A DNA stretch of 64,000 nucleotides, taken from the NCBI RefSeq assembly GCF_002777425.1, contig NZ_MDVC01000113.1:1-64000 (forward strand). Reading direction: 5' to 3'. Both the position numbers and the translations under genes were made by a program. This document shows, piece by piece, positions 36,382 to 52,960 of this stretch. Source of the stretch: Snodgrassella alvi. GTDB lineage: Bacteria; Pseudomonadota; Gammaproteobacteria; Burkholderiales; Neisseriaceae. Every line of letters begins with the position of its first letter. Within the stretch, counting starts at the first letter, position 1. A model generated the notes under the pieces. It ran no database searches and was not told the DNA's origin. It was given only the letters and a program-made list of their open reading frames with translations.

Positions 36382-36942
36382 TTAATCAGGTAAAACTAAA
36401 TTCATGCGCTGTAAGGCTTCTTCAATATCTTCATCGTGGTCTATACAAAAAAATTTAAAATCATTCGTTTTAGGAATTTTTTTAAAAATATCTGTTTTTG
36501 AAAATTCAACCAGTTGCTTCGTGAATAAATCAAGCAAACTATTGGCGAAAGCTTTCCATGCACCATAATCGTCATTAACATCATTAGGATAAAGTTTATT
36601 AAAATAGTTTTCTAGTTCTTCCTCACTAAAAACGTATAGCGTATCAAAACATTGATATTCCCAATCACCAGTATTGTATCTGAGTTGATAAATCGCCTCT
36701 GTTGTTCTGTAATTCTCAGCAAAATCCCCGTTTTGATACCTGTTTAACACCTTAGAAAAAGCATGTTCAGTATTAAAGCATAAATTAATTTCACCGTATT
36801 CAACGTTACAATCAAAAGCAAAAGCGTAAAATCTTAACTCAGGGTGTTGTATTAGAAATTTCTCAACCCCGTTAATAGAAAAATCAAGAATTTTTTTACT
36901 TATCTTAGAGTTGTAGCTGACCAAATAATTATTCTCTCTCAT
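36382..36942 (-). CDS. DUF4303-like hypothetical protein
   Basis: A 186-residue acidic, soluble protein rich in Asn, Phe and Tyr, much more AT-rich than the core genes around it. FYAFAFDCNVEYGEINLCFNT near residues 38-58 and YQLRYNTGDWEYQCFD near 85-100 fit the DUF4303 pattern, a family often found beside polymorphic toxins as a presumed immunity or effector-associated gene. No toxin gene is visible next to it. The family call is from memory of the pattern; the function is unknown. It lies just upstream of the permease pseudogene. Confidence 0.6.
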   Translation of the reverse strand: MRENNYLVSYNSKISKKILDFSINGVEKFLIQHPELRFYAFAFDCNVEYGEINLCFNTEHAFSKVLNRYQNGDFAENYRTTEAIYQLRYNTGDWEYQCFDTLYVFSEEELENYFNKLYPNDVNDDYGAWKAFANSLLDLFTKQLVEFSKTDIFKKIPKTNDFKFFCIDHDEDIEEALQRMNLVLPD

Positions 36943-37884: not shown

Positions 37885-38589
37885 ATGGCATGCGCTCAGG
37901 TGCGTGATTACCTGCAAACGCAAGGATTAAAAGTATCGGCAGAAGAAGTACGGATGGCCATGCTGGCTGTACAGTCTGTATTGGAGCTGGCACAGGCTGA
38001 AATCGATATGTCTGTCTTATGGTATGAAGAAAACGGATTCAGTCTGGCACAAAAATTTGGCTTGAATACAGCAGTACTGCATCAGCTACAGCCGACTGAT
38101 CTGTTTACTATCAATAATAACAGTGCATATACATTGCGGCAGATGTATCTCGCTTTAGATTCAATCGCAAGCCGTTATCATAACGATACCTTTGCTTTAT
38201 ATTTATACGAATCAGATGATGAAGCAGGGCAGTTATATCGATTACTGGCTCAGGGCAGCAAATTGCCGGCGAGAATTGAATGTGGACAGCAACAGGTACA
38301 ACAGTATTTATTTGCCCGCACGGCAACAACCGGCTGGCTGAATCAGGTAAATAACGTGCAGCAATGGCTGGCAGATGGCAGCCTGGTCGATGAACAGGTC
38401 GGAGCTTCCCAGCTAGCTGTCCCCGTAACCAGCGGGCAGGGGCAGATATTGGGTGTGCTGTATACTACTCATCAGCACGATAATGCCATCACCGAAGCCG
38501 AACTAATCGACTGGATAGCTATGGCCATTGTTATCACACCGTTGCTGCAAAATCTGCATAACGCCAGTACAGCACTCATCAAGGGATAA
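37885..38589 (+). CDS. Hypothetical protein with a GAF-like fold, upstream of ribA
   Basis: A 234-residue soluble protein. The first 60 residues are helical ([29 protein letters not shown]). The rest has a GAF-domain-like pattern: [23 protein letters not shown], then [25 protein letters not shown], then [24 protein letters not shown] do not recognise a named family. It ends five bases before the ribA start, so the two form an operon, which hints at a link with flavin or guanine-nucleotide metabolism but does not show one. Confidence 0.7.
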
Positions 38590-38594
38590 ATATC

Positions 38595-39218
38595 ATGACA
38601 ACAACACATCAAAACCAAATTAAAGACCATAGCCCAGTGCGTTTTATTGCTTCCTGCCGTTTACCAACGCAGTGGGGTGAATTTACTATGTATGGATTTG
38701 AAGATGTGCGCAACCGGCAGGAGCACGTAGCACTTACCGTAGGTGATATTGCTAGTGGTGAAGCTGTACTTGGACGAATTCATTCTGAATGTCTTACCGG
38801 CGATGCCTTATTTTCCAAGCGTTGCGATTGTGGGCCGCAGCTTGAAGCTGCTATGAAAGCCGTGCAGCAGGCAGGACGTGGAGTGATTGTTTACTTACGT
38901 CAGGAAGGACGCGGCATTGGCTTACTGAATAAAATCCGTGCCTACAAGCTTCAAGATGAAGGACTGGATACAGTTGAAGCCAATCTTGCTTTAGGCCTGC
39001 CAGTAGATGCACGCGATTTTGCGCTGGCCAAAGACATGCTCGACTATCTTGGCGTACAGTCAATCCAGCTAATGACCAATAATCCGCAGAAAGTAACCAC
39101 ACTCAAAGCACTCGGTATCAATGTAGTCAATCGTGTGCCCTTACATGTTGGCCAGAATCCTGAAAATCAGCATTATCTGCACACTAAAATGGAAAAACTG
39201 GGACATTTTGCTAATTAA
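38595..39218 (+). CDS. ribA: GTP cyclohydrolase II
   Basis: RibA opens the GTP ring to start riboflavin synthesis. The 207-residue length is that of the stand-alone enzyme, without a fused RibB domain. Zinc ligands are in [20 protein letters not shown] (three Cys). The GTP-binding and catalytic stretch is [21 protein letters not shown], with the nucleophilic Arg and a Tyr in the motif. LMTNNPQKV closes the active site. It follows the GAF-like gene with five bases between them. No FMN riboswitch was seen upstream. Confidence 0.95.
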
Positions 39219-39259
39219 AGTCCAGACCAAAAGTTTATTTTTTTAATTATACTCAAAAC

Positions 39260-39290
39260 AAACGGCTAGTATTAACTAGCCGTTTGTTTC
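39260..39290. terminator. Bidirectional terminator between ribA and the first pilC
   Basis: Eleven-bp stem AAACGGCTAGT / ACTAGCCGTTT with ATTA loop, TTTG(TTT) on both sides. The same stem and loop recur after the second pilC. Confidence 0.75.
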
Positions 39291-39301
39291 ATCAATAGAA
39301 T

Positions 39302-42300
39302 TTAGCTGGTGTAGTCAGTTTTAACCTCTCTCCATGACAAACGCTTGAATCTGATCGGGCATCTAGGCACATGAGGAATCGAAATCTTATTGCCCTCTGT
39401 GTCAATACCTTCCACTGATGCTCGAGTGCATGCTTTCGGTGGTTTGTCCTTCTCCTCTAATTCAGACTGTATTCCATCACGACTTAATTCATATGGATTG
39501 ACACCAGTACCTATTACGCTAGAACCATCAGATATTGTGGTACTATATAGCCCCTCAATAGTCAGTACTGCACCAAACGGGATATCCGAGAAAGCAAAAT
39601 GCGGATCCTTATCTTTCAGTCTCGCGCCCGTTTTAATATTGTACTGTATTACACTACTGTAAACTTTACTTTCCTGTTTACGTTCAGTTGTGTCACATGG
39701 ATCAACCAATTCATCATCTTTTTTGACTTCATATTTTCGGGAAAAAACAACCCCTGCATAGGCAATAGTAATAGGTTTGGTAACCACGCGCTCACCTGTA
39801 CCGCTTTCCAAGTTGAAATACCAGCCTTTATGAACCCTTGGATTAAATTCGTTTTCTGAAAGTCGACGATAGCCACCACTGGCGGTTAATTCCTGTTTCA
39901 GTAGGGTACCTTTTGAAATCTCGGCTGGTTTTGTGTTAGTCAGGTCGTCATAGATACCATATACAGTCTGTTGCTCTTTACTTGTTAAATCAGATTGATA
40001 AATATCACTGCCGGTACCGAAAGTAATAATAACATCCCAATTGCTCAAAGGATTGTTATTATTTGAATTATTATTCTGTGTCTTTTCAACCATTGTGACA
40101 CCTGGTGCCGAAGTGATAGGTGCACCGGCAGAAAATATTTTGTGTACAGTCCATTTATCAGGATCAGGTGATCTCAGGTCAAAACGATATAAGTTACCAC
40201 CATAATCGCCGGCATAAGCCACATCTGCAACACCATCGCCATTAATATCAATTACTGTCGGGCCAGAAAGTCCACCAGTATGGGTATTTGATTTGTCTGC
40301 TTCTTCTGATTCGTCGTTATCAGATGAATTCAGCTCTGGCACCAAAGCAAGCTTGGCAATCAGATCACCTTTGCTGAAGCCAATTTTTCTGTAGCCATCA
40401 GTACCGACATCCACACCAAGAATATCATAGATATAAAGCGCGGACTCTGAAGACTGGGAACCCGCACCATCACTAGCCAGCGTAGAAGAATAATTATAGC
40501 CATTACCGATAAACGCAGCTTCACGGATATGGTTTGCTACAGAAGTAGCGGATGCGCCGTCCTCTTCATTTACTCGTAGCCTTGCTATGGCCGGTGTACC
40601 CACGGTAAATCCAAAGTAATTGTTTTGTCCGGTAGGCGTCTGGAATAGGGGTACATCGTGATACCACCCGGAACTGCTCATATTATCTACAGCAATTGGC
40701 TGGCGGGAAACCAGATCATTGCCGCCGATATTGATTGCAAATGCGCCGCGTCCGGCCTGCCCCATTGTTGATAGCATAAATGTCTGTTGCGGACGGAGTT
40801 TTCCATTTTTATCATTACTCCGTTCAGTTTGCTGTACCATCATTCCTCCATTCAGGAGGAAGCGATGTGGATGCTCACTGTTTTTACCATAGTTATTATC
40901 GGTAAGGTACTTATAATAATGGGCAACCAAGTCAGAACCATCATTGCTTTGGCGCTCAATCCCCATAGGCATGAAGTTAAATTTTAAATCGTAAAAATGA
41001 GTTTTATCATTGGTAGCGCGGAAAACATATACCATGCCATCATTGGCAGAAGTAATCATGTATTTCTGAAGGTCACTTCCCTCATCCTTATTACCCGCGG
41101 TGATAATCGGATTATCAATGATGTCGCCCATATTTCGGGTTTCACCAAATCCGGGCATGGGTGAGGTGCCACGTTGACGGTAGTCAAGCACAAAATCATC
41201 GTTTTTGATGGCGTCATCCGGTTTGGCACGGCTAAGCCAGGTTAGTAACCCATTTACCCATTCTGACTGGTTTTTGCCATTATTACTTATCTTAAATGTA
41301 TCATTATTTAAGCCTGCCAGACTTCCTGAATACAAATAGGTTTTGGTACCATCATGCAATAATAGCTGGCGGTTATTAAATGATGGTTCGGCGCATTTGT
41401 TATTGGTTGTATCATCAGTTTTATCTTCTATTGGGCGAATACAGAGTTTAGTACTCCACGAGCCAGATTCAATCATGGCTGTAATTGATAAGTTGCTCTG
41501 CTCGGAGCGGGATACGGCCACTGTTGGCGCAGTAGCAGTAGTATTTGTTGTAGAGGTTTCGGCGGATCCTTTAATTGATTCGAAGATTTTGTTAAAGGCA
41601 TCCTTAATTTCTTGTTGAGAGTTGGTGTTAAAGAAATGACCGGCACTTGGCTGAGCTCCGTTTTTCAGATATGGAATAGCTCCTTTACCTAATTCGCTGT
41701 CTTTCTGGCCTAAACCCGCCCCAATAGTAAATGTTTCGGCCGTTTGCTCGAACGGCTTGCCGCCATTCAGGGGATTAGGAGCATCCCATGCTTTCCTTGC
41801 CTTATCGGTAGGGCGTTTTGGAACATTATTAATGCTGCTAGCATCATCGTTGTAATAATTTCCATCGTAAATATAAGACCCGAAACTTTTTTCATTTAAT
41901 GTTTTGGTGTAGTACTGCAGACGGTAGGGCATATATTTATTATCTTTCTTAAAGAAAGTTTCCCTTACATCTTTATTTCTCATTTTTTCATCAAAATCAA
42001 AATAGCCATCATCAGGTGCTTTGGCATAATAATATTTTTTAGCTTCACCATCAGAAAGCAAAATGATATAAGATTTCTGACAGCGATATTGTAATTTATT
42101 CATTACTAAATTTCTGGCCAAAGTCGGAAATTGTCGTGTAGTTGGTGTAGTGCCATGAGTTGGCATATTTTCGATGAGATTAGTCAAAGTACGATATTCT
42201 GTAGGATTCGAAGTATCATAAAAAGTATTATAACGTGGATCAACACCACCACTATGTAGTGGGTGGAAAGCAAAATACATATTATCATGGTAGTTTGCGA

Positions 42301-42748
42301 CAATATTCAGCAAAACATCTTTTACCCCATCAATTTTTCGGTATGGTCGGCAATAATAACGAATATCATTGGTATTAGCTGGTTTTCCTTCGTACCCATA
42401 CTGATATTCACTCCATGGAGACCAAGCTACGGTTTTTCCCTTTGCATTTTTTCTTATTGATTTACGGTGTTTGCACTTGTATGTTATTTGTCCTGCTTTA
42501 ATTTTTTCCCTCATACTGGCTGAATCGTCGATGAAGAGGGTAACATTGGGTTTAACACTATAAGCTTTAGTAATTGTAGATGAGTTTTGCAAATGCAGAG
42601 GAATATCGGCAAATATATTGGCTTGTGCCAATGCCGGCAAGGCTGGAGAAGTAGTCAGCGCAGCAATAACTGCGGAAAACAGTATTTTCTGTCTTTTGAA
42701 AAATTTGTCTTTTTTGTTATTTTTTGTAAATTTATATTTGCGGCGCAT
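39302..42748 (-). CDS. pilC: PilC/PilY1-family type IV pilus tip adhesin and assembly protein (copy 1)
   Basis: PilC proteins sit at or near the type IV pilus tip, oppose pilus retraction and mediate adhesion. The 1148-residue protein has a long signal peptide (cut after about PALAQA, residues 36-43). Next is a von Willebrand A-like domain with MIDAS motif DDSASM (D74-x-S76-x-S78) and SYIILLSDGEA. The C-terminal half is the PilY1 beta-propeller, with an EF-hand-like calcium loop DINGDGVADVAYAGDYGGNLYRFD. The ribosome site GGAGAG is good. It is the transcriptionally downstream copy of a pair with the gene at 43361. No poly-G phase-variation tract is present. Confidence 0.92.
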   Translation of the reverse strand: MRRKYKFTKNNKKDKFFKRQKILFSAVIAALTTSPALPALAQANIFADIPLHLQNSSTITKAYSVKPNVTLFIDDSASMREKIKAGQITYKCKHRKSIRKNAKGKTVAWSPWSEYQYGYEGKPANTNDIRYYCRPYRKIDGVKDVLLNIVANYHDNMYFAFHPLHSGGVDPRYNTFYDTSNPTEYRTLTNLIENMPTHGTTPTTRQFPTLARNLVMNKLQYRCQKSYIILLSDGEAKKYYYAKAPDDGYFDFDEKMRNKDVRETFFKKDNKYMPYRLQYYTKTLNEKSFGSYIYDGNYYNDDASSINNVPKRPTDKARKAWDAPNPLNGGKPFEQTAETFTIGAGLGQKDSELGKGAIPYLKNGAQPSAGHFFNTNSQQEIKDAFNKIFESIKGSAETSTTNTTATAPTVAVSRSEQSNLSITAMIESGSWSTKLCIRPIEDKTDDTTNNKCAEPSFNNRQLLLHDGTKTYLYSGSLAGLNNDTFKISNNGKNQSEWVNGLLTWLSRAKPDDAIKNDDFVLDYRQRGTSPMPGFGETRNMGDIIDNPIITAGNKDEGSDLQKYMITSANDGMVYVFRATNDKTHFYDLKFNFMPMGIERQSNDGSDLVAHYYKYLTDNNYGKNSEHPHRFLLNGGMMVQQTERSNDKNGKLRPQQTFMLSTMGQAGRGAFAINIGGNDLVSRQPIAVDNMSSSGWYHDVPLFQTPTGQNNYFGFTVGTPAIARLRVNEEDGASATSVANHIREAAFIGNGYNYSSTLASDGAGSQSSESALYIYDILGVDVGTDGYRKIGFSKGDLIAKLALVPELNSSDNDESEEADKSNTHTGGLSGPTVIDINGDGVADVAYAGDYGGNLYRFDLRSPDPDKWTVHKIFSAGAPITSAPGVTMVEKTQNNNSNNNNPLSNWDVIITFGTGSDIYQSDLTSKEQQTVYGIYDDLTNTKPAEISKGTLLKQELTASGGYRRLSENEFNPRVHKGWYFNLESGTGERVVTKPITIAYAGVVFSRKYEVKKDDELVDPCDTTERKQESKVYSSVIQYNIKTGARLKDKDPHFAFSDIPFGAVLTIEGLYSTTISDGSSVIGTGVNPYELSRDGIQSELEEKDKPPKACTRASVEGIDTEGNKISIPHVPRCPIRFKRLSWREVKTDYTS

Positions 42749-42789
42749 GTTAGTTACTCTCCACTTGCATGTCAGTTACTCTTCACTTT
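42746..42789 (-). repeat. Tandem 22-bp duplication at the pilC copy 1 start
   Basis: Two adjacent 22-bp units (42746-42767 and 42768-42789), 19 of 22 bases identical, each containing a GAGAG/AAGAG ribosome site and an ATG on the minus strand. The upstream ATG opens a six-codon frame (MQVESN) whose stop lies just before the real start. Confidence 0.75.
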
Positions 42790-43317
42790 AAGTGTAACAA
42801 CAGTATTGGTTTATATAAAATGCATACAACCTTTAAATGTTCTTTTTTATTATTACTCCTAAATTTATATTTATTCAAATAAAAAATTAAGCTTTTATTG
42901 TAAAATTTAGTTTACCCGAATGAGTTATTATGTGCAATAAATTTATTTTGCATTTAATGGTTAAAACTATAAATTACTTATGTAATAAATTTAATTTAAG
43001 ATTAATCTGTTGTAAATAATCTGTTTGTTATAATATATCTTTTAAAATAATGAAATTATAAAGTATTTTTCAATAGCATATATATGACAATTGCTATTAA
43101 ATAAATAATTGTTTATTTATTAAATTATAATGTTTGATTGAAAAATTTTTAAAGATTTTAATTAACTTACCATAAAAATATTATCTAAATCAATTATTGT
43201 TTTAGTTATAGTGTTGCATATTTGTAAAAAATATTTCTTTTAAATTCATCATCTGAATTATCGCAAAATTAGTGATTTTCAGATAATTCTGGTTTTGCAG
43301 AATAAAAAACCAAATAT
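42790..43317. other. AT-rich spacer between the two intact pilC genes
   Basis: About 530 bases of very AT-rich sequence with no gene. It should carry the promoter of pilC copy 1; I could not choose one among many AT-rich candidates. Confidence 0.5.
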
Positions 43318-43343
43318 AAAACGGCTAGTATTAACTAGCCGTT
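43318..43343 (-). terminator. Hairpin after pilC copy 2
   Basis: Ten-bp stem AACGGCTAGT / ACTAGCCGTT with ATTA loop, identical in core to the hairpin after ribA/pilC copy 1. The minus-strand tail is TTTATATTTGG, a weak T run. Confidence 0.65.
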
Positions 43344-43360
43344 GAGTTCATGAATTAGAT

Positions 43361-46300
43361 TTAGCCAGTATAGCCTGTTTTAATTTCCCGCCATGATAAA
43401 CGCTTGAATCTGATTGGACATTTAGGTACATTAACTGTAATCACATTACCCTCTGTATCAACACCTTCTACTGGTGCTCGAGTGCATTCTTCTGATGGGA
43501 GAGCGCGTCTTCCTAATGGAAGCTGTGTCCTACTTTCGCCCACATCGTTAGGATTGGCGCCCGGTACAGTGAAATTATATAGTCCTTTAATGGTTTTCAC
43601 TGCACCAATCGGAAGCTTTGAGTCCAACTTAAAATGCGGATCAGATTTTTTCAGTCTTGCGCCTGTTTTAATATTGTACTGTATTACACTACTGTAAACT
43701 TCGTTTTCCTCTTTGCGTTCAGTTTCCTGGCAAGGATCGGGCAATTTGTCATCTTTTAAGGTTTTATATTTTCGGGAAAAGACAACGCCGCCATAGGTAA
43801 TCGTAACAGGTTTGGTTACCACACGTTCACCTGTACCGCTTTCCAGATTAAAATACCAGCCCCGGTTAACCTTGGGGTTAAACGGTTTTTCCGAAAGTTG
43901 CCGATAGCCACCACTAGTAGTTAATTCCTGTTGCAGCAGAGTGCCCTTTGAAATCTCGGTTGGCTTTTTGATAGTCAGGTCGTCATAGATACCATATACG
44001 GTCTGTTGATCTTTATTTGATAAATCAGACTGATAAATATCACTACCGGTGCCAAAAGTAATAATGGCCGTCAGATTATTCTGACTATTATTATTGTTGT
44101 TTGAGTTATCATCTTTTGGATTATTAACCAGAATGACACCCGGTGCCGAAGTGATAGGTGCACCGGCAGAAAATATTTTGTGCACAGTCCATTGGGCAGG
44201 ATCAGGCGATCTCAGGTCAAAACGGTATAGGTTACCACTATAATCTGCCGCATAAACTATATCTGCGATATCATCACCATCTATATCAATTACTGTCGGG
44301 CCGGAAAGGCCTCCAGTAGATTCATCAGAATCAGGATCCTGATTAGGATTCACCTCCGGTGCCAGCTTGGCAATCAGTTCACCTTTTTTGAAGCCAGTTT
44401 TTCTATAGCCATCCGTACCGACATCCACGCCAAGAATATCGTAAATATAAAGTGCAGATTCTGAGGAGGGTAAACCCGCATTATTGCTTGCCAGCGTAGA
44501 AGAATAATTATAGCCATTACTGATAAACGCAGCTTCACGGATGTGGTTCGCTACAGAAGTAGCAGATGCGTTGGGATCTTCGTTTACACGCAGCCTTGCT
44601 ATGGCTGGTGCACCCACAGTAAATCCGAAGTAATTGTTTTGTCCAGTGGGTGTCTGGAATAGGGACACGTCATGATACCAGCCAGAGCTGCCCATATTAT
44701 CTACAGCAATTGTCCGGCGGGAAAGCAGATCATTGCCTCCGATATTAATTGCAAACGCACCACGTCCGGCCTGTCCCATTGTTGACACCATAAATGTTTG
44801 TTGAGGACGGGGAATGCCATTTTTATCGTTGCTCTGTTCAGTCTGCTGTACCACCATGCCCCCGTTCAGCAGGAAGCGATGCGGATGCCGGCTGTTTTTA
44901 CCATAATCTTTATTGGTAAGATCTTTATAATAATGGGCAACCAGATCAGAGCCATCGTTGCTTTGGCGTTCAATACCCATAGGCATGAAGTTAAATTTCA
45001 AATCGTAAGGATGCTGTGTGTTGTTAGTAGCACGGAAAACATACACCATACCATCATTGGCTGAGGTAACCATGTATTTTTGCAAGCCGCTACCCTCATC
45101 ATGATTACCTGCGGTGATGATTGGATTATCAATGATGTCGCCGATATTTCTTCTGGATTCATCAAATTTTCCTTCGGCTAAAATGGTACGATTACGGTAG
45201 TCGAGCACAAAGTTATCGGTTTTGATGGCATTGTCAGGTTTGGAGCGGCTAAACCAGGCCAATAAACCATTTACCCATTCCGACTGATTTTTACCATTAT
45301 TGCCTATCTTAAATGTATCATTGTTCAAACCGGTCAGACTACCTGAGTACAAATAGGTATGGGTGCCATCGTTTAATAATAGCTGGCGGTTATTAAATGA
45401 TGGCTGCGCGCTGCATGCGTTATTGGTTTTATCTTTTATTTCGCGAATACAGATTTTACTACTCCATGAGCCAGATTCAACCATGGCTGTAATTGATATC
45501 TTGCCCCGTTCGAATTGGGATATGGCCACAGTTGGTGCAGTCGCAGTAGTGGTGGTGGTGTTAGTTTCGGACTCGCCTTTAATTGATTTAAAGATTTCTT
45601 CAAAAGCACCCACAATTTCTTTTTGGGAATTGGCATTAAAGAAATTACCGGATGGCATGGCTCCGTTTTCCAGATATGGGATAGCAATCTGTCCTTTTGC
45701 ATTGGTTTTCTGACCTAAACCCACGCCAATAGTAAACGTTTCAGCTGTTTGGGTGAAAGGCCGGTTGCCATTCAGGGGGTCAGGAGAATTCCACGCTTTA
45801 CCCGCATTATCGGTAGTGCGTTTGTGAATATCGGTATGAATATTACTACCATCAGAGAAATAAAATTTATTGTCGTAAATATAAGGCCCGAAACTTTTTT
45901 CTTTTAATATTTTGGTGTAATGTTCCAGACGATGGGGCTTGTGTTCAGTCCGATAATTGCCGCCACGAGTAAAGAAGTCTTTTCTTTCCTGAGTTGTTTT
46001 CCATTTTTGATCAAAATAGCCATCCATTATGGTATCTGATCTGGCAACGGTGTTATCAGCCTCACCGTCTGAAAGCAGAACAATATATGATTTCTGACAG
46101 CGATACTGTAATTTGTTCATCACCAGGTTTCTGGCTACAACTGCGATTTGTTCTGTAGTTGGTGTTCCGCCACCAGTTACAAGATCTTTGATGTGTGTAG
46201 TCAATTCATCGTATTGTGCAGGATCTGAAGTATCATAAAAGGTATTATAGCGGTCATTGGTACCAAGTAGGGGACGGAAGGCAAAATACATATCATTACG

Positions 46301-46732
46301 GTATTTGGCCAAAATATTCAGCAAAACATCTTTTACTCCATCGATTTTTTTGAATTGCCGACATCTATATTGAATATCATTGGTGTTGGCAGGTGTTTCC
46401 TGAAATCCATACTGATATTCACTCCATGGAGACCATGCTGAGGTTGTTCCCTGCGCATTCTTTCTTATGGATGTACGGCTTCGACATTTAATTGAATCCC
46501 CCTGGAGTTTTTCATTCATACTGGCTGAGGAATCAATTAATAAGGTAATATTAGGTTTAATACTATAAGTAGTAGTAACCGTAGATGAGTTTTGCAAATG
46601 TAGTGGGATGTCGGCAAATATATTAGCTTCTGCCAGTGCCTGGGTACTTAATGCTCCTGCTACTGCAACAAATAGAAATTTTTTCCCTTTTCGAAATCTG
46701 CTTTTTTTATTGTTTATATTTAAAGTGCTCAT
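43361..46732 (-). CDS. pilC: PilC/PilY1-family type IV pilus tip adhesin and assembly protein (copy 2)
   Basis: An 1123-residue paralogue of the copy at 39302, near-identical over long central stretches and diverged in the N-terminal adhesin half and the last 150 residues. It has a signal peptide (cut near STQALAEA), the MIDAS motif IDSSASM (D67-x-S69-x-S71) and SYIVLLSDGEA. The calcium loop DIDGDDIADIVYAADYSGNLYRFD and the conserved C-terminal KCPIRFKRLSWREIKTGYTG are also present. Both copies look functional. Neisseria species also often carry two pilC genes, but at separate loci; here they are adjacent. Confidence 0.92.
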   Translation of the reverse strand: MSTLNINNKKSRFRKGKKFLFVAVAGALSTQALAEANIFADIPLHLQNSSTVTTTYSIKPNITLLIDSSASMNEKLQGDSIKCRSRTSIRKNAQGTTSAWSPWSEYQYGFQETPANTNDIQYRCRQFKKIDGVKDVLLNILAKYRNDMYFAFRPLLGTNDRYNTFYDTSDPAQYDELTTHIKDLVTGGGTPTTEQIAVVARNLVMNKLQYRCQKSYIVLLSDGEADNTVARSDTIMDGYFDQKWKTTQERKDFFTRGGNYRTEHKPHRLEHYTKILKEKSFGPYIYDNKFYFSDGSNIHTDIHKRTTDNAGKAWNSPDPLNGNRPFTQTAETFTIGVGLGQKTNAKGQIAIPYLENGAMPSGNFFNANSQKEIVGAFEEIFKSIKGESETNTTTTTATAPTVAISQFERGKISITAMVESGSWSSKICIREIKDKTNNACSAQPSFNNRQLLLNDGTHTYLYSGSLTGLNNDTFKIGNNGKNQSEWVNGLLAWFSRSKPDNAIKTDNFVLDYRNRTILAEGKFDESRRNIGDIIDNPIITAGNHDEGSGLQKYMVTSANDGMVYVFRATNNTQHPYDLKFNFMPMGIERQSNDGSDLVAHYYKDLTNKDYGKNSRHPHRFLLNGGMVVQQTEQSNDKNGIPRPQQTFMVSTMGQAGRGAFAINIGGNDLLSRRTIAVDNMGSSGWYHDVSLFQTPTGQNNYFGFTVGAPAIARLRVNEDPNASATSVANHIREAAFISNGYNYSSTLASNNAGLPSSESALYIYDILGVDVGTDGYRKTGFKKGELIAKLAPEVNPNQDPDSDESTGGLSGPTVIDIDGDDIADIVYAADYSGNLYRFDLRSPDPAQWTVHKIFSAGAPITSAPGVILVNNPKDDNSNNNNNSQNNLTAIITFGTGSDIYQSDLSNKDQQTVYGIYDDLTIKKPTEISKGTLLQQELTTSGGYRQLSEKPFNPKVNRGWYFNLESGTGERVVTKPVTITYGGVVFSRKYKTLKDDKLPDPCQETERKEENEVYSSVIQYNIKTGARLKKSDPHFKLDSKLPIGAVKTIKGLYNFTVPGANPNDVGESRTQLPLGRRALPSEECTRAPVEGVDTEGNVITVNVPKCPIRFKRLSWREIKTGYTG

Positions 46733-47237
46733 AGTTAATTACTTTCCAGCATAGGTAAATATGGCAAATTGATTAAAATAATATGCTATTAATGTGTTAT
46801 ACATAAATTATCATGATTATATACTATTTTATATATGTTAAATAAGATGTTATCTTGTTTTGAATAATGATAATTTAAAATTATGTAATGGTAATTTATG
46901 TTTTATTTATATTTCTCTTTAAATGAACAATAGCTTCAATCTAGAATTAAATACATGTATTTATTATTAATTATAGCCAAAATGGAAGAAGTTTAATGTA
47001 TTTAAAATACAAAATTGTATTTATAAAAAACCATACATTTATAAATTTATGTAATATATGAAAATAATTTATTTAACATAATGATTTTTCGATTAAATTA
47101 TTCTTTTGTTCTTTTTAATATATTGTTTTTTTATAAAATTATAATTATTGAGATAAAGGCGGGTAGATTAATTTTTGGTTATATGTAAATTAATGAAAAC
47201 GAATGGCTGGTTAGTCTCAGCCAATTTGTTTATTAGT
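46733..47237. other. AT-rich spacer upstream of pilC copy 2
   Basis: About 500 bases, extremely AT-rich, no gene. It should hold the copy 2 promoter. An imperfect hairpin TGGCTG / CAGCCA at about 47208-47227 may be the degraded terminator of the pilC pseudogene. Confidence 0.5.
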
Positions 47238-49530
47238 TAATTTTAATAATCTGTTTTAATTTTTCATGAGGAGCGAGCGTTAAATCTGATGGGGCAGTGT
47301 GACACACGAACGGTTGTTTTTTCTTTATCAGTAGCAGTAATAACAAATATGATGAAGATGTACTCTCCAGAATTGTTTGTAATTTGAAGAACTAGCCTCG
47401 ATGCTTAAAGGAATTAAACGGTTTATTGTTTAGCTGGCGGTAGTGGCTGTTTTAGGTAACAACTTTTGTAAAAGGCTTCCTTTGCTAATTTAAATCATTA
47501 TCGATTGCGCATACGGTTTGCCGTCTTTATTTTCAGATCAGTCTGATAGATAGCGCTGCTAATAGCAAAAGTGACTATTGCAGTTGGGTATAAGCTTTAG
47601 TTATGAAGAACGCTGCTAATATTAGAACTTGCTATGCCTTTTGTCAGAAGTGCATCTGGCACTGCTGTAGTTGATGCATCAAGGATAAAAATTTTATGCA
47701 CTTTCCAATTCTCAGAATTTGATACATGCAAACCAAAGTAGTACAGATTAATCATGTAATTGCTGGCATATACGATATTGGTTATGCCATTACTATTTAT
47801 CGCAATCACTATAGGGTTAAAGGTTGGCAGTGCTATTTGGTGCAATCAGTTTGGTAATCGGTTCATCTTTTTGCGTTTTGCTACGGATATAGATTGTGGT
47901 GCCTACGTCTATGCCGGGAATATCATAAAAATACAATGCAGATTCTGGCGATGGTCTGGTGGTAATATGCTGTGCCAGTGAAAGGAAACAGTAATAGCCA
48001 ATACTGATAAATGCAGTCTGACGAATATAATCAGTTATTGATGTATCTGAGACGCCGGCATTGAAGTTAACTTGTACACGGGCAATGGCAGGAATGCCGA
48101 TGGTGTTGCCAAGCTGATTATTTTTACTGCTAAGTGTCTAAAATAAGAAGACATTCTCATACTAACTCTACAACTGCATTGTTTTCAGCCGCTACGGTTC
48201 TGTCAGTAATGACATTATATCCACTGGTATTCCTGGCAAATGCACCATCTCTGGCCTGTACGAGTGTGGGAAGCATAAATATCTGTTGCGGAAAGTTATT
48301 GCTGTCTTCAGTTTGCTATATGTTTATGCTGCTATGTAGCAGGAGGAGGTGAGGGTAGAGTTATTGGTGCCATAATTTTTACAGGTTAAAGTTCTATGGT
48401 AGTGAAGGCGACCAAATTGGAACCATCATTACTTTGTCTTGCGATGGCTATGGGTATGTAATTAAATTTAAAATCATAGAGATAATTGGTATTGTTGCTG
48501 GAGCGGAAAACGAAAACCATGTCAGCATTGGCTGATGCAATCAGGTATTGCTGGCGATAGTTTTCGATATTGCCGGCAGTGAGAATGGTATTGTTGATAA
48601 TGTCTTCCTGATTGTGGATATTGCCAAAATCTTTCAGCAGATTCGAGGATAAGAGTATTTTTCAGGACTGTGCCATCGATATGTAAACGGTTTAGCCAGA
48701 CAAGCAATTGTTGTTTCTGATTTTGAACGTGTCGCTATTAAAGCTGCGGAGGTTCTCATTGTACAGGCAGGCATTTTTACTTTCATTGAGTAACAGTAGT
48801 CGGTTATTGTGGGAAGGCAGCATCTGGTAAGAGTAATTGCTATTAATTTTATCTATAGTAAATGCAAATCTGGCTACTTCCATAAACCGGTTTCTATTTG
48901 GCGATAATTGACAAATTACCTATGCTGGTATTGGAAATGGCTATGGCTGTAGTTTGAATGGCTGTTATGGTTATTTTACCTTTGATGGTTTTAAATATTT
49001 TGCCAAAGGTACGGATGATTTCATTGCGGGGATTGGCATTGACAAACAATCTTTGGAGTCGTTTTTTTCATTGTATGCACTGTTTGATATTGCTCCAATT
49101 TGCAGATGGGGGATAGCTATGTTTGTTTTATCGGTATTGCGCTGGCCTAAGTTCAAGCCAATAATGAATGTTTGCGCAGTTTGGCTAAAGCGTTTACCGG
49201 TTAGCGGATAAATTGCATTCCATGGCTGGCCTGAATTATCAGTATTTGTTCTGTCTGCTGAGGCATTAATAGATTTGCCGGTTGAGTTGTAAGAATCTTT
49301 GATAGATGTAGTCACCAAGGTTGAAGTGGTTAAGGCTGTCTGTGTAGTATTTCAGACGCAATGGTTGTTAGCATTGTGATTATGCGCAATGAAGTTCAGT
49401 TGAAATTTGTTACTCAGGGAGTCGCAATCACAATAGACATCATGGCGTGAATCTTTGCTATTAGTGTAGCTTTGTTGAATATGGAAATAGGTGTTATCAG
49501 TTTCACTATCATCTTGTAATTTTGATTTCT
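47238..49530 (-). pseudogene. Decayed third pilC copy
   Basis: Fragments of PilC recur in the right order in all three minus-strand frames. At the 3' end about 47250-47320 resembles the last codons of the intact copies. At 47597-47845, NSNGITNIVYASNYMINLYYFGL matches the calcium-loop block, with the calcium ligands lost. At 48692-48883, NNRLLLLNESKNACLYNENL matches NNRQLLLHDGTKTYLYSGSL. At 48971-49318, FSQTAQTFIIGLNLGQRN matches FTQTAETFTIGVGLGQK. At about 49490-49530 the DNA matches the LLSDGEA region. Everything before that (signal peptide, MIDAS) is missing, and the C-terminal part is shortened. Many stops and frameshifts make it non-functional. Confidence 0.85.
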
Positions 49531-49739
49531 ATTTTAAGATATTAATTGTGATGTAAGTTAATTGTATTGTTAATGTTGATGTGCTTGTGAATTTCAGGTG
49601 AAAGGTGTGTATCTGCTGGTAAAGTGTATCTGATCATATGGTTTGCCTATAGTCTATAAAAATTGATTACTGGTTATGGTGAAATTTATTTTTAAAAACA
49701 GTAAATTGTAAAATAAGTGCGCTCTGTTGAAAAAAAGGC

Positions 49740-49769
49740 TTGCTGTGTTGCTTACTCTATGATTAAATA
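49740..49769 (+). promoter_or_regulatory. Probable promoter of the tRNA cluster
   Basis: TTGCTG, 17 bases, TTAAAT, followed by a GC-rich discriminator (GCGCC), a form typical of stringently controlled stable-RNA promoters. It lies just upstream of the first tRNA-Val. Confidence 0.5.
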
Positions 49770-49786
49770 CGCGCCTCAACAGCACA

Positions 49787-49862
49787 GGGTGATTAGCTCA
49801 GTTGGTAGAGCGTCTGCCTTACAAGCAGAATGTCGGCGGTTCGACTCCGTCATCACCCACCA
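49787..49862 (+). tRNA. tRNA-Val (TAC), copy 1
   Basis: Acceptor GGGTGAT / ATCACCC with encoded CCA; anticodon loop CTTACAA gives TAC, valine. 76 bases. Identical to two further copies downstream. Confidence 0.95.
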
Positions 49863-49870
49863 GTTTACTG

Positions 49871-49889
49871 TTTTATGCATCGCATAAAA
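49871..49889 (+). other. Hairpin between tRNA-Val and tRNA-Asp, copy 1
   Basis: Perfect 8-bp stem TTTTATGC / GCATAAAA with a 3-base loop ATC. No T tract follows, so it is more likely an RNA-processing or spacer structure than a terminator. Confidence 0.5.
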
Positions 49890-49894
49890 TATGC

Positions 49895-49971
49895 GCGGTG
49901 GTAGCTCAGCTGGTTAGAGTACCGGCCTGTCACGCCGGGGGTCGCGGGTTCGAGCCCCGTCCGCCGCGCCA
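49895..49971 (+). tRNA. tRNA-Asp (GTC), copy 1
   Basis: Acceptor GCGGTGG / CCGCCGC, discriminator G, encoded CCA; anticodon loop CTGTCAC gives GTC, aspartate. 77 bases. Confidence 0.95.
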
Positions 49972-50000
49972 ATTTACTTTTTTGCTGTTTTCTTTTTTAT

Positions 50001-50076
50001 GGGTGATTAGCTCAGTTGGTAGAGCGTCTGCCTTACAAGCAGAATGTCGGCGGTTCGACTCCGTCATCACCCACCA
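50001..50076 (+). tRNA. tRNA-Val (TAC), copy 2
   Basis: Identical in sequence to copy 1, 214 bases further on. Confidence 0.95.
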
Positions 50077-50084
50077 GTTTTTTA

Positions 50085-50103
50085 TTTTATGCACAGCATA
50101 AAA
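50085..50103 (+). other. Hairpin between tRNA-Val and tRNA-Asp, copy 2
   Basis: The same 8-bp stem TTTTATGC / GCATAAAA as in copy 1, but with loop ACA instead of ATC. The stem is kept while the loop and flanks vary. Confidence 0.5.
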
Positions 50104-50108
50104 TATGC

Positions 50109-50185
50109 GCGGTGGTAGCTCAGTTGGTTAGAGTACCGGCCTGTCACGCCGGGGGTCGCGGGTTCGAGCCCCGTCCGCCGCGCCA
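50109..50185 (+). tRNA. tRNA-Asp (GTC), copy 2
   Basis: Same as copy 1 except one base in the D-arm region (CAGTTGG versus CAGCTGG). Confidence 0.95.
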
Positions 50186-50213
50186 ATCAGCATTTTTGCT
50201 GTTTTCTCTTTAT

Positions 50214-50289
50214 GGGTGATTAGCTCAGTTGGTAGAGCGTCTGCCTTACAAGCAGAATGTCGGCGGTTCGACTCCGTCATCACCCACCA
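50214..50289 (+). tRNA. tRNA-Val (TAC), copy 3
   Basis: Identical to copies 1 and 2, 213 bases after copy 2. No third tRNA-Asp follows. Confidence 0.95.
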
Positions 50290-50515
50290 TAAATTTCTCT
50301 CTTTTTTATCCTGCCTGATTAATTTTCTATTTGGTTAACTCAACTATTAGTATTTAAATGTGATATTTTTGCTGATAGTGCGATTAATGTATAATGATAT
50401 TTGCAATAATAAATTTGTTGTAATTACAGCATTTACGGTAACAGGTTCTCACACATATTTATGCGTTACTGAATAAACGATATGTATCTACTTGTATATC
50501 CATGAGATATTTTAC

Positions 50516-50544
50516 TTGGCAGAGGTTGCAAACTATCTTATAAT
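50516..50544 (+). promoter_or_regulatory. Promoter of tRNA-Leu
   Basis: TTGGCA, 17-base spacer, TATAAT: close to the sigma-70 consensus, 30 bases upstream of the tRNA. Confidence 0.7.
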
Positions 50545-50574
50545 TTAATGCTCAATCAGCTTTTGATTGTTTGT

Positions 50575-50659
50575 GCGGATATGGCGAAATTGGTAGACGC
50601 ACCAGATTTAGGTTCTGGCGCCGAAAGGTGTAAGAGTTCGAGTCTCTTTATCCGCACCA
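50575..50659 (+). tRNA. tRNA-Leu (TAG)
   Basis: Acceptor GCGGATA / TATCCGC with encoded CCA, a long variable arm and anticodon TAG, which reads CTA leucine codons. 85 bases. Confidence 0.95.
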
Positions 50660-50667
50660 TTGATCTT

Positions 50668-50704
50668 AAAAGATATCTCAGAAATGAAGATATCTTTTTT
50701 ATTT
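50668..50704 (+). terminator. Rho-independent terminator after tRNA-Leu
   Basis: Stem AAAGATATCT / AGATATCTTT with an 8-9 base loop, running into TTTTTT. Confidence 0.75.
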
Positions 50705-51160
50705 TGTTTATGCTGTTCAGTTTGATTTACTAGTCTACATTTGATTCAAGTTTGTAGTTTTCTACTGTTCTTAAAATCATTTATTTGCTTATCCATTTGT
50801 TTTATCAGTTGGAATAAGCTTAATCCAAATTGTAACCAGTTTACTCAATATTATTAGCAGGATAAATCTCAGGTTTATGTTAGCTTTTATTTGGTGAAAG
50901 CAGCTAAATATCTGTTTGAGTTAAGTCTGAGTACTCAAATATTTATTCAGAGTATAGACACGCGCTATTGTATTGGAATTGATTATAAGACGGAGCCATA
51001 TATTGGCATTTAAATGAACTCATTCGATTTAATTAACTATGCCGGATTGATTTGTGTTAGTTAATATGCTGATTTTTAAAATATATCTATTCTATGGCGT
51101 CAATCTGAACTGAATTAAAATATAAATTGCTTGGTTTCAGTTTACTGATTTATATTTATA
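50705..51160. other. AT-rich spacer between the tRNA cluster and argS
   Basis: About 455 bases with no supported gene or strong hairpin. Confidence 0.5.
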
Positions 51161-51207
51161 AAAAAATGCACTGTCTGGAATAAAGCTGATTCAAACAGTG
51201 CAGTTTA
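51161..51207 (-). terminator. Rho-independent terminator after argS
   Basis: Stem TGCACTGT / ACAGTGCA with a long loop; on the minus strand it ends in seven T residues. Confidence 0.7.
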
Positions 51208-51232
51208 TGATTCAGATAAGTGATTGCTTGAA

Positions 51233-52960
<1,728 letters not shown>

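Follow-up and report, generated by a model that had tools for sequence, protein, structure and literature searches.

A tandem array of PilC/PilY1-type genes was analyzed in a window of 64,000 nucleotides from Snodgrassella alvi (assembly GCF_002777425.1, contig NZ_MDVC01000113.1, positions 1 to 64,000 of the forward strand). The array consists of two intact genes, A and B, and the wreck of a third, C, and lies between argS with a tRNA cluster and ribA. The favored reading, given a probability of roughly 0.78 as a whole, is an old PilC/PilY1 locus with gene turnover, in which conversion acts on the middle of A and B, alleles are exchanged between species, and C is the relic of a gene, here called P, that related species keep intact. 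Such a locus of pilus adhesins would recombine and probably be exchanged horizontally, and it would not be a silent-cassette system. As the first-pass annotation of this DNA had described, three copies lie head-to-tail on the minus strand; A and B are open and match PF05567, and C, transcriptionally furthest upstream, is broken by stop codons and frame changes and recovered as five tblastn pieces with B as the query.

39302-42748, minus strand: A, intact PilC/PilY1-type gene, 1148 amino acids, downstream copy (open reading frame, PF05567, structure match)
43361-46732, minus strand: B, intact PilC/PilY1-type gene, 1123 amino acids, upstream intact copy (open reading frame, PF05567)
47246-49519, minus strand: C, wreck of a third PilC/PilY1 gene, read as a P orthologue (tblastn pieces, tree position)

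For comparison, 61 genomes were searched with B, and a match was found in 41, among them every one of the 14 genus members, with one genome per species. Four of these 14 have argS, tRNAs, the wreck C, B, A, and ribA in this order: the window genome, Nev4-2 (G008 in gene labels), WF3-3 (G009), and S. gandavensis LMG 30236 (G010; gandavensis below). The last three are reported from Bombus nevadensis, B. pensylvanicus, and B. pascuorum, respectively (PMC9239279). In three others, G005 (wkB2-like, wkB2 being a strain from Apis mellifera), G007, and G013, the order is argS, tRNAs, P, Q, ribA, with P and Q intact. G002 has a single gene, Q, at the locus, without any trace of a wreck at an E value of 1e-3, and neither array arrangement was seen in the remaining six members. 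The P gene is also found in G001, G003, and G004, sharing a contig with argS in G001 and G004. The C-B-A state is common to four bumblebee-associated species and is not genus-wide.

Mosaic structure of the intact genes

In the window genome, A and B are 76.7% identical in nucleotides and 71.4% in amino acids overall. Windowed alignment of the intact genes, which the first-pass annotation had proposed as a check, reveals mosaic blocks of identity. Nucleotide identity per 50-codon block ranges from 76 to 86% across columns 450-850 and from 58 to 76% in those blocks of columns 0-450 that were scored; the block at 1150 has 56%. The near-identity claimed for the central propeller thus does not hold in the window genome; it is found in WF3-3, where A and B are 93-99% identical over columns 600-850. 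The claim that the copies differ most at their ends is confirmed by the fixed amino acid differences between the four A and four B proteins, which, among gap-free variable positions, number 45 of 186 in A residues 1-325, 4 of 279 in residues 326-1050, and 9 of 56 in residues 1051-1148. Uniform divergence and a three-copy state fixed in every strain had been named as the opposing picture; divergence is non-uniform, and the three-copy state is found in four species, not in the whole genus.

The trees depend on the region from which they are built. For residues 1-325, A and B form clean separate clades (support 100/100). For residues 326-1050, A and B of gandavensis (A_G010 and B_G010) are united and B of WF3-3 (B_G009) falls with A of Nev4-2 and WF3-3 (A_G008/A_G009), both groupings having 100/100 support; the approximately unbiased (AU) test rejects an A clade (p-AU 2.2e-5). 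A runs test was performed on 362 synonymous codons whose amino acid is identical in all eight genes. The within-genome A-B comparison gives p_ss values of 0.0002 in the window genome, 0.0002 in WF3-3, and 0.0007 in gandavensis, and none of the 12 cross-genome A-B pairs falls below 0.05. Because only synonymous variation is counted, the runs are not explained by mere conservation of the propeller. These results indicate intragenomic conversion between A and B in three of the four genomes, including that of the window. Recombination between the intact copies, as suggested earlier, is strongly supported by the mosaic blocks, the region-dependent trees, and the intragenomic runs.

Origin of the broken copy

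The best query for each of the four wrecks, among 28 intact proteins, is P of G013 or P of G005. With P of G013, pieces of C at an E value of 1e-3 or better cover P residues 275-1008 (window positions 47377-49519); a weak further piece, on which the region below 47377 rests, extends the match to P residue 1165 at position 47246. For P residues 1 to about 274, C gave no match. In alignment rows made with P as the guide, each wreck taken alone is placed inside the P clade with support of 100/98 or 100/99, and the grouping of the wreck with A/B is rejected for all four (p-AU 0.003-0.047). Since P-guided rows could favor P, the placement was repeated with B as the guide for two wrecks, those of the window and gandavensis. 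Both fall in the P clade again (100/99 and 100/100, respectively), and for the gandavensis wreck the A/B grouping is rejected (p-AU 0.002). The joint tree unites the A and B genes in a single clade (100/100). The wreck trees omit X_G011a/b, X_G006a, and X_G003, and the joint tree alone also omits the wrecks of Nev4-2 and WF3-3; all pilY1 trees omit the broken gene of G012 as well as additional copies or fragments from G001, G003, and G004.

Differences between wrecks are flat across the three codon positions (82/72/68 for window and gandavensis, 55/41/49 for Nev4-2 and WF3-3, in the nucleotide alignment), unlike those of A and B, which are concentrated at third positions. This flatness identifies the decay of C, as far as substitution patterns tell, as neutral. 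Taken together with the placement in the P clade and the slot in which G005, G007, and G013 keep the gene, it marks C, on the evidence of its sequence, as a neutral relic of P. The possibility that C is a failed copy or offspring of A/B was rejected, all four wrecks being nested in the P clade. The repeated duplication proposed in the first-pass annotation therefore fits A and B, while the wreck, as a decayed P orthologue, stands outside that duplication.

The wrecks fall into two haplotypes with different large deletions, one shared by the window and gandavensis and the other by Nev4-2 and WF3-3. In Nev4-2, open frames resembling transposase occur in and near the wreck. Two of them, one of about 274 amino acids and one shorter, are closely similar and oppositely oriented, and are located inside the wreck and in the interval from argS to the tRNAs; by eye, they resemble IS3-type transposases.

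Selection and probable exchange between species

Each of the four species has open A and B genes, and both are evidently constrained, because median dN/dS (nonsynonymous over synonymous divergence) among orthologues is 0.12-0.61 by segment, with 0.12-0.14 in the propeller. A evolves faster than B, the median dN of A-A comparisons exceeding that of B-B comparisons in all eight segments.

Synonymous divergence (dS) was compared with a flank set of 36 genes, defined as open frames of at least 130 codons with matches in all four genomes. Between the window genome and Nev4-2, the two closest relatives of the four, dS is 0.81 for A and 0.34 for B, against a flank median of 0.15 (0.02-0.31). The values are 0.58 and 0.50 against 0.20 (0.07-0.36) for the window and gandavensis, and 0.70 and 0.55 against 0.26 (0.09-0.48) for Nev4-2 and gandavensis. 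On these estimates, the excess divergence of A and B is shown to be real in the three species pairs without WF3-3. Since the excess varies by pair, a plain high mutation rate is insufficient, and A alleles must either have passed between species or have persisted as ancient variants. Alleles, those of A above all, seem to move between species. The wreck haplotypes unite Nev4-2 and WF3-3, the same pairing as that of their A genes, and the haplotype pairing disagrees with the argS tree (from which G006, having no argS match, was omitted). The Nev4-2 and WF3-3 lineages have probably been linked by transfer; the position of Nev4-2 is described as left open in a published phylogeny (PMC9239279).

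Protein family and proposed mechanism

A and B are ordinary members of the PilC/PilY1 family. They match PF05567 (T4P_PilY1) at 8.5e-36 and 2.4e-32, with scores of 124.2 and 112.8 bits against a curated cut-off of 28.1. In a predicted structure model of A (mean predicted local distance difference test score, pLDDT, of 71), residues 548-1128 match the C-terminal domain of Pseudomonas aeruginosa PilY1 (3hx6_B, Z 24.9; 392 residues aligned, root-mean-square deviation 3.0, 27% identity), although the match list (VIA-align) includes many unrelated propellers too. Residues 63-397 match the vWF domain of Mfa5 (Z 19.1), and vWA-type matches to Mfa5, PilB, and SpaC cover residues 60-398 at Z 17.7-19.1. 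A putative calcium-loop pattern, D-x-D/N-x-D/N-x-x-x-D, is present at A 834 and B 816, and a putative metal site of the DxSxS type in the N-terminal vWA-like domain at A 74 and B 67; the two motifs belong to the PilC/PilY1 propeller and vWA domain, respectively.

The N-terminal part of PilC/PilY1 proteins binds the host. As judged here from the vWA match, the N-terminal vWA-like domain of A and B is probably ligand-binding. The window genome has one secretin match and three T2SSE ATPase matches above the cut-off, an indication that it possesses the pilus machine. We infer an adhesin function for A and B, as well as their expression and a meaning for the host.

Phase-variation repeats were not found in the window copies of A and B or in the 300 bases upstream of them (thresholds: G/C run of 6, A/T run of 8, 2-5-base repeat of five units). 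Phase variation through such repeats was rejected for these copies, as no tract qualifies, including homopolymers in the 5' coding part. Among the relatives, B_G008 has an A8 and A_G008 an ACT repeat, T8 and G6 occur at A_G010, and a TA repeat precedes A_G009. No word like the DNA uptake sequence was found in the window, where the ten most frequent 12-mers are parts of tRNA genes.

The proposed mechanism begins with an old locus for PilC/PilY1, a type IV pilus-associated adhesin and biogenesis protein, between argS-tRNAs and ribA, whose gene set would turn over. In the four bumblebee-associated species, the first gene, P, has decayed into C, and B and A, paralogues of a sister lineage, fill the rest of the locus. 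Each of the two proteins would combine an N-terminal vWA-like, probably ligand-binding part with a C-terminal calcium-site propeller that is thought to serve the pilus machine. Homologous recombination within the genome would keep overwriting their shared middle, and the N-terminal part (the C-terminal tail partly) would remain copy-specific, probably through selection. The result would be two proteins that share a pilus-facing part through conversion and keep two ligand-facing ends. Alleles would be exchanged between species by homologous recombination in the conserved flanks; both this route and selection for two binding specificities are what we infer.

A bolder and more doubtful extension, offered tentatively, treats the interval between argS-tRNA and ribA as a plug-in site for pilus-adhesin cassettes in this bee-gut genus. 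The conserved flanks would act as homology arms, whole gene sets (P-Q, Q alone, or C-B-A) and single alleles would be swapped between species, local conversion would re-tune the propeller to the resident pilus, and the vWA end would keep a binding specificity matched to the host. If this were true, losing P and acquiring A/B would signal a change of binding target in some of the bumblebee-associated symbionts.

Alternative explanations

The first-pass annotation had suggested that the array serves as an adhesin variant store. In that case the wreck would be a silent donor feeding variants into A and B, as pilS does for pilE. A broken partial copy does adjoin the intact copies on the same strand, and recombination is active at the locus. 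However, the window wreck, the only one for which the nucleotide donor test is complete, is 65-74% identical to the A and B genes over matching stretches, and the most similar patch that it shares with an intact gene reaches 89% over 27 bases. Among the 12 families of direct repeats of at least 30 bases in positions 38500-52000, ten join A and B, two are tRNA repeats, and none includes the wreck, which moreover belongs to a different orthologue group (P), lacks codon-position constraint, and exists as two deletion haplotypes. With neutral decay and no near-identical patch shared with A or B, C was rejected as a donor store; this explanation is largely refuted and the idea of a variant store does not stand for the wreck. 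A recent triplication confined to one lineage, with one of the tandem copies in decay, would account for three head-to-tail genes and for the single A + B clade, but the A/B split is older than the four species in the N-terminal tree, the wreck groups with P, and the same array state is found in four species. It is considered very improbable.

It could also be supposed that no conversion takes place, the middle being merely more conserved and the tree conflict arising from whole-gene transfer between species alone. The low dN/dS of the propeller and the likelihood of interspecies exchange are in keeping with this view. Against it stand the restriction of the runs test to synonymous variation at codons with an invariant amino acid, the absence of runs in cross-genome A-B pairs, and the fully supported conflict between trees built from the N-terminal part and from the middle of the same genes. 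In WF3-3, furthermore, A-B dS is 0.17 in the propeller versus 0.67-1.48 in the three N-terminal segments, and the explanation is regarded as unlikely. Drift alone, with duplicates under relaxed selection all on their way to becoming wrecks, would suit one dead copy out of three in four species and the faster evolution of A; it has little to recommend it, as A and B remain open in the four species, their changes are rich in third positions, and median dN/dS is below 1 in all segments.

Several results nevertheless weigh against the favored reading of conversion, exchange, and a P relic. With B-guided rows, the grouping of the window wreck with A/B is not rejected by the AU test (p 0.12), which also tempers the case against triplication. 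Residues 1051-1148 do not sort strictly by copy, an A clade being neither found nor rejected there (AU p 0.1). In Nev4-2, the within-genome A-B runs give a p_ss of 0.70, that is, no intragenomic conversion, and one of the 12 same-copy pairs (B of the window and Nev4-2) gives 0.008, which keeps the runs test from being entirely clean. For A and B alike, dS stays within the flank range in each of the three pairs with WF3-3: 0.81 and 0.66 against 0.43 (0.15-0.87) with the window, 0.35 and 0.66 against 0.42 (0.07-0.78) with Nev4-2, and 0.69 and 0.74 against 0.45 (0.21-0.82) with gandavensis. The raised dS could partly result from weak codon bias or saturation.

Neighboring features

The remaining features of the locus are as follows.

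38595-39218, plus strand: ribA (GTP cyclohydrolase II), conserved downstream flank
43124-43153, minus strand: promoter-like site upstream of A (consensus scan, weak)
43320-43343, minus strand: terminator-like hairpin after B, 10 pairs (consensus scan)
49787-50659, plus strand: tRNA cluster Val-Asp-Val-Asp-Val plus Leu, upstream border of the array
51233-52954, minus strand: argS, conserved upstream flank

The hairpin after B and the promoter-like site before A weakly suggest that A is a transcription unit apart from B; the consensus scans gave 14 terminator-like hairpins against 9.0 expected and 53 promoter-like sites against 41.6 expected in shuffles. The window assembly comprises 2,577,724 bases in 115 contigs, and no other PilY1-type match was found in it with B and PF05567 as queries.

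The copy number of the tandem Val/Asp tRNA array (window 49787-50289) varies between species: the window and Nev4-2 have five genes each, WF3-3 has 11 (L041:3698-4828), and gandavensis, G005, G007, G013, and G002 have three each. The neighboring tRNA-Leu is reversed relative to the array in G007 (L044:5029-5113) and G013 (L045:14507-14591) and has the same orientation as the array in the window and in the five further loci that were scanned. A DUF4303 gene near the array (window 36382-36942) is intact in the window, gives a three-piece match in gandavensis (L042:773-1329), and is represented in the Nev4-2 locus by a match to its first 40 residues only. A second argS-type gene, about 60% identical, occurs in G001, G002, G003, G004, G008, and G009; in gandavensis, only a piece of it with stops was found. 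G004 has six PF05567 matches on contigs C3, C6, C16, C77, and C79, three of which lie no more than about 1,200 bases from a contig start, and may represent a larger, possibly under-assembled PilY1 expansion.

Comparison with known systems

In Snodgrassella, type IV pili have been linked with the formation of biofilm (PMC11389375) and, through patterns of single-nucleotide polymorphisms, with host differences (PMC8597283). No literature on the PilC/PilY1 proteins of Snodgrassella was found, as judged from listings that mostly do not cover subscription journals. The family and the paired PilC proteins of Neisseria and Kingella are already known; the adjacent, mosaic PilC pair beside a P-gene relic appears to be new. 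A paired locus with distinct binding ends and a shared middle is a natural experiment that separates parts that may set specificity from a part that may serve the pilus, and it offers concrete candidates for the source of differences between the symbionts of different bees.

Neisseria meningitidis and N. gonorrhoeae likewise have two related PilC proteins per genome, PilC1 and PilC2, for which distinct binding is reported (PMC9000118, PMC7157529). However, the tags NEIS0371 and NEIS0033 suggest separate loci (PMC7157529), whereas A and B are adjacent, and Neisseria pilC1 is described as switching by a G tract (PMC5231331), which window A and B lack. Kingella kingae also has two PilC-family proteins, PilC1 and PilC2, which differ in adhesive specificity; there, the PilC C-terminal domain is reported to be enough for surface piliation (PMC9000118). 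The Kingella pair is given as 7% identical overall (PMC9000118), in contrast to 71% for A and B, with conversion. P. aeruginosa PilY1 has the propeller domain in common with A and B (PF05567, 3hx6_B), but one PilY1 is reported in that species (PMC9000118), compared with the tandem mosaic pair described here.

Closer to hand, the P-Q pair of G005 occupies the same locus between argS-tRNAs and ribA with two intact head-to-tail PilY1 genes. Unlike in the C-B-A array, its P is intact and groups with the wreck, and its Q comes from another lineage. The pilE/pilS system resembles the A/B locus in intragenomic recombination between pilus genes (PMC7157529). It differs in that no silent donor with near-identical blocks is seen here, as judged for the window wreck, and in that both recombining copies, A and B, are intact.

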